Notes under the pieces: generated by a model
Database searches by the model: none
What the model saw: the letters and a program-made list of their open reading frames with translations, nothing else
Told to the model about the DNA's origin: nothing
Assembly (NCBI GenBank): GCA_021822495.1
Contig: JAKAQO010000001.1
Location: 576,808 to 640,807 of the forward strand
DNA from: a bacterium
GTDB lineage: Bacteria > Elusimicrobiota > Elusimicrobia > UBA1565 > UBA9628
Length of the DNA: 64,000 bases
Direction: 5' to 3'
Program-made: the position numbers and the translations under genes
Part shown: one piece after another, positions 11,322 through 27,489 of the stretch
Numbering within the stretch: position 1 is the stretch's first letter
Layout: every line of letters starts with the position of its first letter

Positions 11322-11714
11322 TTATTTTCCGTCCGGTTCTATAAAGAGAAGGGCTTGTCCGTAGGCAACAGGGCTGGAATCTTCAACTAAGATGCGGGCA
11401 GCTCTCCCAGAAGAAGCGACCTTGACCGGAACCGTTTTTCCCGGCAAGGTTTCGATGTATCCAATGGTCTCTTCCGCTAAAAGAGAATTTCCTTCCTCTA
11501 TTTTTTGCGGATGGCCAGGACGGGACCAGCGGAAGGTGCCTATCGCCGGAGCCGAGACGACTTGATAATGGGCCTGGGGCATTTCCGCGAAGGATTCGTC
11601 TGGGTGTTCGGTAGTCGTAAATGAGAATCCCGAACCTTTTTCCTTAAGGGACACCGAAGTAAGATCAGTCGTTTTAACCCAGCCGAGAATTTCTTTAATC
11701 TGTTCCGTTTTCAC
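11322..11714 (-). CDS. accB: BCCP-like protein without the biotinylation motif
   Basis: 130 residues with the AccB layout: N-terminal helix (QIKEILGWV), linker, and a biotinyl-like domain beginning SAPAIGTFRWSRPG and ending VAYGQALLFIEPDG. In the biotinylation hairpin, where AccB proteins have EAMK(L/M)M, this one reads IETLPGKTVPV (Lys93 in PGK), with one extra residue. Reading the other two frames over this stretch does not restore EAMKM, so a simple sequencing frameshift does not explain it. It directly precedes accC. Either a carrier using an altered site, a decoy, or a regulatory subunit. The symbol reflects fold and context, not proven function. Confidence 0.8.
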   Translation of the reverse strand: MKTEQIKEILGWVKTTDLTSVSLKEKGSGFSFTTTEHPDESFAEMPQAHYQVVSAPAIGTFRWSRPGHPQKIEEGNSLLAEETIGYIETLPGKTVPVKVASSGRAARILVEDSSPVAYGQALLFIEPDGK

Positions 11715-11771
11715 GATTCCTCCGGAAAATCTTATTTTCGCCTCAGCTCATTTTAGCATTTTCGTTTCCTG

Positions 11772-12037
11772 AGGGCTTGGAAAGAAATAAGGTATCCATC
11801 TCGGAGGTTCGATGTTGAGACGATTTCAAGGCGCGAGAAGCGAGCATAACGAGTTATGTGAGCGCCGAGCAACGAAGAAATCGGCCAAGAGCGAACCTCC
11901 CCGAAGGGCCGGGGCGATTTTGGGCTGCGCCTTCGTCGTTCGTCGCTTACATAGCTCAAGCTATGCTCGCTCCTCACTTCTCGGCTCGCTCCAAAATCGC
12001 CCCGGCGAGATGGATACCTTATTTCTTTCCAAGCCCT
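11772..12037. repeat. 266-bp branched (three-way) palindromic element
   Basis: This fills most of the only gene-free stretch longer than 300 bases (11715-12150). Outer arms 11772-11803 and 12006-12037 are 32-bp perfect inverted repeats. Inside lie two long hairpins: one with base 11803-11811/11892-11900 and an inner stem 11821-11827/11877-11883, and one with base 11909-11923/11991-12005 (15 bp perfect). The hairpin tips carry related short palindromes (CATAAC-GAG-GTTATG and CATAGC-TCAA-GCTATG-like) flanked by similar AGCGAGC/GAGCG and AACGAAG words, so the two halves look like diverged copies. No convincing gene lies inside. It may be a MITE-like mobile element, a dispersed intergenic palindrome or a structured RNA. 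Confidence 0.8.
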
Positions 12038-12106
12038 TAGGGCGCATTTCTCAAGCGCGGCGGAGGGAAAATAACTGGTAAAATAAATTTGTTTCCGACG
12101 AATGAG

Positions 12107-12135
12107 GGAACTTTTTGGCGAGTTATCCGTATCAA
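12107..12135 (+). promoter_or_regulatory. sigma-E/ECF-type promoter, probably autoregulatory
   Basis: GGAACTTTT at 12107-12115 matches the -35 of sigma-E-type ECF promoters. With 16 bp after GGAACTT comes TATCAA (12130-12135; GTATCAA in context), similar to the ECF -10. It is placed 16 nt before the sigma gene, so the sigma factor probably activates its own operon. Confidence 0.5.
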
Positions 12136-12150
12136 TAGAGACGGGGTTTG

Positions 12151-12690
12151 ATGGCTATGCTTGAAAATCTGATCAAAGAATACGCCGAAAAGGGATATCA
12201 CTTCGCCTTCCGCTTATCCGGAAATACGGAAGAGGCCAAGGATTTGGTCCAGGAAGCTTTTTCCCGCGTTTTGAGCAAATGGAACCGCTATGACGCCTCT
12301 CGCCCCTTTGATCATTATTTCCTCACAATTCTTAAAAATATCTATTACGATTATTCCGCCAAGAAAAGTTCCCGCAACTTGCCCCTGGACGCGCCCGTTG
12401 GCGGCCAAAAGGGCCTTGAGACCTTCGCCGATCAGCTCGCCGACCGAGAAGAACCCCTTTTAGAGCGGCTCATGCGCCGGGAAACGGAAGAGACTGTTGA
12501 ACGCTGCCTCCGCCAAATCGCCAAGGATCACCGCGCTATTTTAACTCTCTGCGATTTGGAAGGCCTTTCCTATGAGAAAATATCCGAAGTCCTGGGCTGT
12601 CCAATAGGAACAGTCAAATCCCGCATTAGAAGGGCCCGGTGCGCGCTCAAAATAAAGCTCTTGGATCAATTTAAGGAGGTCCCTTTATGA
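12151..12690 (+). CDS. ECF-family RNA polymerase sigma factor
   Basis: 179 residues from the ATG at 12151 (a TTG directly before it is less likely). Region 2 covers about 10-75 (EEAKDLVQEAFSRVL, then the -10 recognition part RPFDHYFLTILKNIYYDY). Region 4 covers about 115-170 (DLEGLSYEKISEVLGCPIGTVKSRIRRAR, a helix-turn-helix for the -35). No region 3, typical for ECF sigmas. It heads a five-gene operon with an anti-sigma factor and an RseB-like protein, so it is a sigma-E-type envelope-stress regulator. It overlaps the anti-sigma gene by 4 nt. Confidence 0.92.
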   Translation: MAMLENLIKEYAEKGYHFAFRLSGNTEEAKDLVQEAFSRVLSKWNRYDASRPFDHYFLTILKNIYYDYSAKKSSRNLPLDAPVGGQKGLETFADQLADREEPLLERLMRRETEETVERCLRQIAKDHRAILTLCDLEGLSYEKISEVLGCPIGTVKSRIRRARCALKIKLLDQFKEVPL

Positions 12691-25922: not shown

Positions 25923-26714
25923 ATGCACCCCATTCTCTTGTCATTAGGCCGCTTTCGGATTTACAGCTATGGAGTTTTAATCGCCCTCGGCGGGGTTTTC
26001 TCGACTATTTTCTGGCTAAAACATTGGAAGCCCATGGGTCTCAAAAAAGAGGACGATGTCTGGCTTTTGGTCAACACCCTGATTCTCTCCGGCTTTCTTG
26101 GAGGGCGCATTCTCTACGTGTTCCAATATGACCCCTGGTTTGGCCGCGCGTTTTGGGGCGATCTTTTTTCGCTGAACCGCGGGTTTTGCGTGATGGGGGC
26201 CATTCTCAGCGTCATTTTGGGAATTTATCTTTACGCCCGTTTTCTCAAACTTCAATTTTTAAGGACTCTCGATTACGTCTGCCAAGCCGCTCCTCTTTGG
26301 CATTTTTTTGGACGGCTCGGATGCTTTTCCGCCGGATGCTGCTACGGCATCCCAACCTCAAAACCCTGGGGCGTCAAATTTACCAATCCCCAATCCCTGG
26401 TCGAGCCCGATTTTTTGGGAATTCCCATCCATCCAACCCAGCTTTATGAGGCCTTCGGGGAACTCGGCATCTTTTTCATCCTTTATTATTTTTTCCTGAG
26501 ACGCCTGGAAACGGGGAAAATAAAGCCCGGAGTTCTCAGCGCGGCCTATATCGGCGGATATGGAGTTTTAAGATACATTCTTGAATTTTACCGCGGCGAC
26601 GCCCTTTGGATGCAAAGTTTGCCCATGACCCAGGTCCAGGCATTTTGTCTTTTGCAGATTTGTATCGCTGGAATTATTTTATGGAGGGTTCGTCATGCAT
26701 CCCATTCTTCTTAA
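25923..26714 (+). CDS. lgt: prolipoprotein diacylglyceryl transferase, copy 1
   Basis: 263 residues from the ATG at 25923 (AAGGAAA site). Multispanning: starts MHPILLSLGRFRIYSYGVLI, has the Lgt signature region as FGRLGCFSAGCCYGIPT, the HPTQLYEAFGEL motif with essential His and Tyr, and the ending GVLRYILEFYRGD. Lgt attaches diacylglycerol to the lipobox cysteine, the first step of lipoprotein maturation. It overlaps a second lgt by 20 nt. The cysteine-rich AGCCYG replaces the more usual NxE segment, as in a subset of Lgt proteins. Confidence 0.9.
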   Translation: MHPILLSLGRFRIYSYGVLIALGGVFSTIFWLKHWKPMGLKKEDDVWLLVNTLILSGFLGGRILYVFQYDPWFGRAFWGDLFSLNRGFCVMGAILSVILGIYLYARFLKLQFLRTLDYVCQAAPLWHFFGRLGCFSAGCCYGIPTSKPWGVKFTNPQSLVEPDFLGIPIHPTQLYEAFGELGIFFILYYFFLRRLETGKIKPGVLSAAYIGGYGVLRYILEFYRGDALWMQSLPMTQVQAFCLLQICIAGIILWRVRHASHSS

Positions 26715-27489
26715 TCTTGGCTTTATCAAAATCCCCACCTACGGAGTCTTGGTCGCTTTGGCTTATATTTCTGCGGTGTTTTGGGTTAAGCGCAAGATTT
26801 CCATGATGCCCGGCATGACCGAGGACAAATTCTGGACTCTCATCTACGGAATTTTCTTTGGCGCGATTTTGGGCGGAAAAATTCTTTTTATTATGGTTGA
26901 ATGGAACGCGTTTAGATCCGGAGAACTGAGCTTTTTTCGCGATTTCCGCTACGGTTTTGTTTTCTATGGCGGCTTTATCGGCGGCATCGCGGCCGCCATG
27001 TTCTTTCTTAGGCGCCTTAAGATTCCATTTTTACCCTCGGCCGATTATTTCGCCTCCGCCCTGCCCTTGGGTCAGGCCATTGGCCGCTGGGGGTGTTTGG
27101 CCGCCGGATGCTGCTACGGAAAGCCGACTCAACTTCCCTGGGGAGTGCGTTTGGGTGGGAGCCCGGAAAGCGTGACCCCGCCTGACCTTTGGGGAATCCC
27201 GCTTCATCCAACCCAGCTCTATGAATCTGCGGCGGATTTTTCTATTTTCCTTTTCATCTCCTTTTGGCTGATTCCGCGCATCGAGAAAAAAGAAATCAAG
27301 GCCGGAACCGCTTTTTGGACTTACATGCTGACCTATGCTTTCGCGAGATTTCTCATTGAATTTGTCCGCGGGGATGACCGCGGCTGGTCTTTTATGTCCC
27401 TATGGGTGTCCCAGTGGGTCGCCTTGGGATGCTTTTTAGCCGCCCTCATCGCGCTCTATAGAAACGGAATAAAAACTCAAAATGTCTAA
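26695..27489 (+). CDS. lgt: prolipoprotein diacylglyceryl transferase, copy 2
   Basis: 264 residues with a GGAGG site. Same architecture as the upstream copy: MHPILLNLGFIKIPTYGVLV, GRWGCLAAGCCYGKPT, HPTQLYESAADF, and FARFLIEFVRGDDRG. The two are clearly paralogous but well diverged, so the duplication is not recent. Both keep the signature residues. It overlaps the RluA gene by 8 nt. Possible division of labour between substrate classes, or one may have a changed lipid donor. Confidence 0.9.
   Translation: MHPILLNLGFIKIPTYGVLVALAYISAVFWVKRKISMMPGMTEDKFWTLIYGIFFGAILGGKILFIMVEWNAFRSGELSFFRDFRYGFVFYGGFIGGIAAAMFFLRRLKIPFLPSADYFASALPLGQAIGRWGCLAAGCCYGKPTQLPWGVRLGGSPESVTPPDLWGIPLHPTQLYESAADFSIFLFISFWLIPRIEKKEIKAGTAFWTYMLTYAFARFLIEFVRGDDRGWSFMSLWVSQWVALGCFLAALIALYRNGIKTQNV

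Follow-up and report, generated by a model that had tools for sequence, protein, structure and literature searches.

In the window, the 64,000-nucleotide stretch of DNA that we analyzed, the gap between accB (11322-11714, minus strand) and an ECF sigma gene (12148-12690, plus strand) holds a palindromic element, of which this is the only copy in the window (Table 1). The neighbors on the plus strand form an operon of an ECF sigma factor, a zf-HC2 anti-sigma factor, and a MucB-RseB-like protein, and both flanking genes are divergent, pointing away from the element, which places it in the gap named in the original prediction. Its 264 bp contain only short overlapping ORFs and no transposase gene. 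The palindrome of 266 bp that had been noted at 11772-12037 is real, but the element proper is shorter; likewise, the perfect outer arms, given as 32 bp, consist of a 31-bp inverted repeat to which the A11772-T12037 pair adds one more. Among the genomes compared, accBC adjoins the ECF operon in the host genome only (window 11714-12148). Elsewhere in the window, two diverged direct-repeat pairs (67 and 45 nt; 70-80% identical) lie about 775 bp apart at 26308-26449 and 27080-27224 and suggest a tandem gene duplication.

Table 1. Parts of the palindromic element and its target-site repeats (positions in the window)
Feature	Position	Strand	Basis
Whole element, 264 bp, GGG...CCC	11773-12036		Ends set by comparison with 56 other copies, flanks included
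Left terminal inverted repeat (outer stem arm)	11773-11803	+	Perfect complement of 12006-12036; helix 1 covaries at 25/30 pairs
Right terminal inverted repeat (outer stem arm)	12006-12036	+	Perfect complement of left arm; helix 1 covariation
Hairpin 1	11804-11901	+	Consensus fold and covariation
Cross-phylum G·A-rich core within hairpin 1	11813-11892	+	Covariance model R1, 87.1 bits; G·A ladder
Hairpin 2	11909-12005	+	Consensus fold and covariation
Second core copy, inverted, within hairpin 2	11916-11997	-	Covariance model R1, 67.0 bits
Left target-site repeat TGA, degenerate	11770-11772		Same position as TTA/TAA duplication in other copies
Right target-site repeat TTA	12037-12039		Same position as TTA/TAA duplication in other copies

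Folding both strands as RNA, as had been proposed, gave structures far beyond those of dinucleotide shuffles (z = -13.1 and -14.1), and the DNA fold of the plus strand was comparably set apart (z = -10.9). The two internal hairpins are present as predicted, and the sequence words they were said to share turn out to belong to inverted copies of one core, since a single covariance model recognizes both hairpins in opposite orientations. The suggested three-way-junction shape is returned by the DNA fold of the focal copy and by the family consensus, whereas the RNA fold of the focal copy alone prefers a single long hairpin because the entire element is itself palindromic.

Matches to the element were present in 20 of the 57 genomes searched, host included. 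The 2.2-Mb genome of the host, an uncultured bacterium of the Elusimicrobiota, carries four full copies (the focal one and those at C14:47.3 kb, C2:21.3 kb, and C6:167.2 kb) as well as several end fragments, and many full-length copies occur in G003, G005 (a relative in the same family as the host), G006, and G041. Four isolated ends in the host (C4:35336, C4:101443, C7:7743, and C9:5871) are unpaired and seem to be remnants of decayed copies. Nucleotide searches of plasmid and phage collections gave no match to the focal element. Subfamilies within a genome are mostly 93-100% identical, with about 70-82% identity between subfamilies, a pattern typical of repeated bursts. For one copy (L002), an empty site was found in all four congeners, where its two neighbor genes lie directly side by side; the search for other copies and empty sites called for by the original prediction was thus successful on both counts, with the empty sites at this copy and not at the focal one. 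At the focal locus, the flanking gene groups are separate in three of the congeners, and only the accB side could be matched in G003; the focal copy thus marks a synteny break in the host lineage.

Variants of 46, 55, 162, 174, 306, 325, and 382 bp share these ends and have exact duplications on both sides, so hairpin modules are lost and gained. The minimal versions (46 bp at L280:2091-2136 and 55 bp at L293:1067-1121) are back-to-back terminal repeats with exact TTA duplications; they may have arisen by internal deletion or may represent the smallest units that can transpose. At six loci (L108, L155, L156, L288, L289, and L292), larger versions of 325-383 bp have additional sequence separating the two hairpins.

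When copies were aligned with their flanks, the ends of the element read GG...CC, typically GGGCTYG...CRAGCCC, and inverted ends were present in all scored copies. Exact 3-bp duplications of TTA or TAA flank 41 of the 57 scored copies, within a wider target preference for C-TWA-G (CTWAG). Several copies that lack the outer C or G, such as L063 and L087, keep exact TWA repeats, so the duplication is of 3 bp rather than 5. A search for target-site duplications at positions 11771 and 12038 had been suggested; the duplication is exact in most other copies, but in the focal copy it is imperfect (TGA on the left, TTA on the right). Terminal inverted repeats, a target-site duplication, dispersion in multiple copies with empty sites, and the lack of an internal transposase together have the element conform to a MITE, and the same observations lend good support to the earlier suggestion of a palindrome moved in trans.

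A strong hairpin in an intergenic gap could also be a chance or local palindrome or, as originally suggested, a bidirectional terminator between genes. No terminator-like site was found at the element, that is, no GC-rich stem with a T run downstream of a gene, and the divergent neighbors do not transcribe toward it. Moreover, the other copies and the empty sites refute such an explanation as a full account, and the target duplications and the covariation of the family also speak against it; we find it hardly credible.

Copies often sit in stop codons. At 12 of the 39 sites with exact duplications, an ORF of 100 codons or more ends in the duplicated TWA. The same holds for 18 of the 875 remaining TWA trinucleotides of these flanks (2%; p = 3e-10) and for 3 of their 30 CTWAG pentamers (p = 0.045). 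These counts use simple ORFs as gene calls and are thus indicative. Twenty-three of the 39 sites lie within 30 bp of a stop. Landing on stop codons is what a CTWAG target combined with counter-selection would naturally produce, as a duplicated TAA leaves the gene intact, and it explains how such large palindromes are tolerated. Some small "hypothetical proteins" in metagenomes may be mere translations of these elements.

Unconstrained folding of an alignment of 36 diverse copies by RNAalifold yielded a consensus of an outer stem and two hairpins. In this structure, 96.6% of the cells are paired and 60 of the 84 pairs have changed on both sides, with 463 double-change cells, whereas shuffles gave 127 and slid controls no more than 64; derivation of the structure from the same alignment favors the percentage paired, yet it leaves the double changes unexplained. 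Other copies, covariation, and a stable fold, the absence of which was to count against the original prediction, thus all exist. The outer stems differ in sequence among subfamilies but keep their complementarity. The perfect stem of the focal copy had been taken to imply recent formation or active maintenance. Symmetry is indeed maintained over deep divergence, and for that very reason the perfection of the stem does not date the copy.

The level at which complementarity is kept can be gauged from the mispairs. With pair 73/92 excluded, G·T occupies 51 of the 2,981 cells in paired columns and A·C 33, a ratio of about 1.5 (20:8 in hairpin 1, 16:10 in hairpin 2, and 15:15 in the outer stem). 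Since selection at the RNA level should favor G·T far more, the complementarity of the arms is probably maintained at the DNA level. The arms of inverted repeats can be homogenized through template switching (PMC8604942, PMC7202029), a candidate process for maintaining the stem, in which case a perfect stem would again carry no date.

The core itself behaves differently from the stems around it. In hairpin 1 it reads GGCGCGAGRAGnGAGCATARC - loop - GYTAYGTGAnCGACGAGCAACGnAG, and its antiparallel arms form tandem G·A/A·G pairs. Across the 36 copies these mismatches are near invariant (64/102 G·A in 36/36, 65/101 A·G in 33/36, 67/98 G·A in 32/36, 68/97 A·G in 36/36, and 71/94 G·A in 34/36), while Watson-Crick pairs among them switch freely (66/100 is GC in 19 copies and CG in 15; 70/95 is GC in 14, CG in 13, and TA in 5), so that columns 66/100, 69/96, and 70/95 co-vary amid the G·A pairs. 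Nearly constant mismatches with co-varying neighbors are hard to explain by recognition of double-stranded sequence alone, and template-switch correction is likewise a poor explanation, because it would erase the mismatches. We infer that the pattern reflects selection on one folded strand, and our best guess for the role of the core is recognition as a folded single strand. As hairpin 2 is the core of hairpin 1 inverted, there is one core on each DNA strand.

Tandem G·A pairs that are nearly invariant and strand specific and have co-varying Watson-Crick neighbors might also be expected of a structured noncoding RNA (or its gene) that is spread by transposition, with selection acting on the G·A-rich hairpin of the transcript. 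The strong RNA folds are in line with this, and a copy at a stop codon would form the 3' end of a transcript. However, the rarity of G·T relative to A·C is unlike selection at the RNA level, each strand carries one core, and the focal copy sits between divergent genes. Furthermore, no promoter-like site was found for the element, and no Rfam family matched in the window at its gathering threshold (the best weak match scored 16.2 bits, with 45 needed). We consider a primary function as RNA unlikely. The fold of the core is strand specific and conserved, and the low tolerance of the stems for G·T points to DNA over RNA as the folded strand.

Of the 295 genomes sampled from the phylum, 89 have the core according to covariance model R1, with at least 15 matches in many of them. 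A scan of about 85,000 genomes with the left half of the core matched 112 stretches, where some 2 would be expected by chance as estimated from the pattern and the size of the collection. These matches fall in Bacteroidota (Chitinophagales, Saprospiraceae, and Lewinella), Desulfobacterota/Thermodesulfobacteriota, Acidobacteriota, Eremiobacterota, Gemmatimonadota, Verrucomicrobiota, and Elusimicrobiota. Most of those not cut by a contig end lie within a palindrome of about 130-310 bp, and the core is commonly 57-60 bp from the end of the palindrome. The right half of the core, which the search left unspecified, is also conserved; all tandem G·A pairs recur, and the surrounding stems co-vary across phyla. 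In viral contigs, the right half of the core gave no match, and two other matches, which have no surrounding palindrome, look like chance; the plasmid collection gave no match to three elements of other phyla.

The terminal repeats, in turn, differ widely across phyla (GGAACGGGAG..., GTGGCGCG..., GTACTCTG...), although a TAAGT-like block about 14-20 bases in is common to many of them. Duplications in these phyla are TNA in some elements and resemble TA or CTAG in GTG-ended ones. For the GTG-ended elements of Lewinella and Chitinophagales (loci L163-L274), the duplication seems to be CTAG or TA and not TWA, which hints at another transposase serving the same core. Isolated ends in these two groups are mostly contig breaks or internally deleted copies, and a 3.7-kb end pair (L362), considered as a larger element, encloses ordinary-looking genes and represents two separate elements. 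With its core conserved in at least six other bacterial phyla, the element belongs to a widespread MITE-like superfamily. The comparisons show the mobility history of the element, its ends and duplication, its family with its covariation, and the cross-phylum core.

As to the mobilizing enzyme, IS5-family (PF13586) elements in G028 and G056, which are of the same phylum, have the ends GAGCCTATC, GAAACTGTT, and GAGCCTGTC with duplications TAA, TTA, and TAA in a C-TWA-G context. Their GAGCCTG- or GAAACTG-like ends are loosely similar to those of the element. Because target, duplication, and, loosely, ends are shared, an IS5/IS1031-like transposase acting in trans would, by analogy, be the best mobilizer. 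IS5-type elements with TWA duplications at C-TWA-G were seen at L328:260-1208, L332:933-1763, and L335:703-1763. As in IS5 derivatives, the duplication falls within 2-4 bp at a T-N-A or CTWAG-like target; a complete IS that encodes an IS5-type DDE transposase and shares the ends of the element was not found. No transposase-bearing copy was present in four element-rich relatives or at sampled ends in five genomes of other phyla. PF01609, PF13359, and PF13586 were found neither in the host nor in the element-rich G003, G005, and G006, and none of PF01609, PF13359, PF07592, PF13586, and PF01797 tracks the element among the genomes searched. The transposase partner has likely been lost or gone undetected. 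One transposase type may not serve all elements, given that the duplication in the GTG-ended elements of Bacteroidota and Acidobacteriota looks like 2 or 4 bp.

The two inverted hairpins also look like a REP doublet, which raises the question of a REPIN/BIME-like element moved by a Y1 (HUH) transposase of the RAYT type that acts on single-stranded hairpins. Y1_Tnp proteins occur in 44 of the 57 relatives, and in G005 a RAYT-like Y1_Tnp ORF (L084:609-1430) lies about 5 bp from a copy (G005:C37:169001). This proximity is probably a coincidence, as Y1 genes do not track the element: the element-bearing G003, G004, G046, and G052 lack Y1_Tnp, and most element-free genomes have it. At the Y1 loci sampled, a set that did not include the G005 locus, there was no convincing adjoining copy and only short weak matches. 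Insertion by Y1 enzymes does not leave a 3-bp duplication, and REPINs have no target duplication, whereas the element does. We regard mobilization by such an enzyme as very unlikely.

Taken together, the element is a nonautonomous transposon of the MITE type, and we are fairly confident of the following account of it as a whole. Its ends would be recognized in trans by an IS5-family DDE transposase (of the IS1031/IS427-like groups, which are related to eukaryotic PIF/Harbinger), and this enzyme would excise the element and insert it at CTWAG with duplication of TWA. As CTWAG holds TAA or its complement, the duplication would leave a stop codon intact, and copies at stop codons would be tolerated. 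The complementarity of the arms would be upheld at the DNA level, either as a requirement of the transposase or by template-switch correction of quasipalindromes. The weakest step is the last one, in which the G·A core would be selected as a folded single strand, bound by the mobilizing protein or by a host protein; the strand might be a single-stranded DNA hairpin during replication or excision, or RNA.

A bolder reading, which we offer tentatively and think rather improbable, is that the G·A core serves as the hairpin recognized by an undescribed mobilization or host system that horizontal transfer has spread over at least seven phyla, with a folded DNA or RNA strand bound by protein and with exchangeable terminal repeats. 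If true, this would make it a bacterial transposable element of a new, structure-guided kind. In mobile elements, it is normally the ends that are conserved while the middle drifts. Here the reverse is seen: the ends are variable, whereas the hairpin core, with its nearly invariant non-Watson-Crick pairs, has been retained across phyla; it occurs in chromosomes but was not found in the plasmid and phage collections searched. Since the covariance model finds the core in so many genomes of the phylum, its reader can now be searched for.

We could not match this MITE-like superfamily to any described family. No published description of the element was found in the open-access literature, although one may exist elsewhere; the core word gave primer-like coincidences only, and papers on MITEs and REPs offered only analogies. 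Correia-type, NEMIS, and ERIC/RU sequences are small intergenic mobile hairpins with short TA-type duplications, but to our knowledge they have no G·A-paired core and form families confined to narrow lineages. This class of small mobile sequences has been reviewed (PMC2229807). REPINs/BIMEs and the GTAG and CGTC REP repeats are likewise dispersed palindromic repeats that form inverted hairpin doublets, and the CGTC repeats, too, are without a known transposase (PMC3733652). However, those repeats measure 20-40 bp, compared to about 130-380 bp for our element (46-55 bp in its minimal forms), which in addition has a target duplication, no GTAG tag that we noticed, and no association with a RAYT. 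The closest likeness is to the bacterial MITEs of the IS5 family (IS1031/IS427), which are also short and gene-less, with a terminal repeat that starts GG/GA...CTG, a 3-bp TWA duplication, and subfamily bursts. The Tourist-like MITEs of eukaryotic PIF/Harbinger form a comparable short, gene-less class with a 3-bp TWA duplication. In contrast to both, the element described here, for which no parent IS was found, is a nested palindrome over nearly its entire length, and its core is better conserved than its ends and recurs in several phyla.
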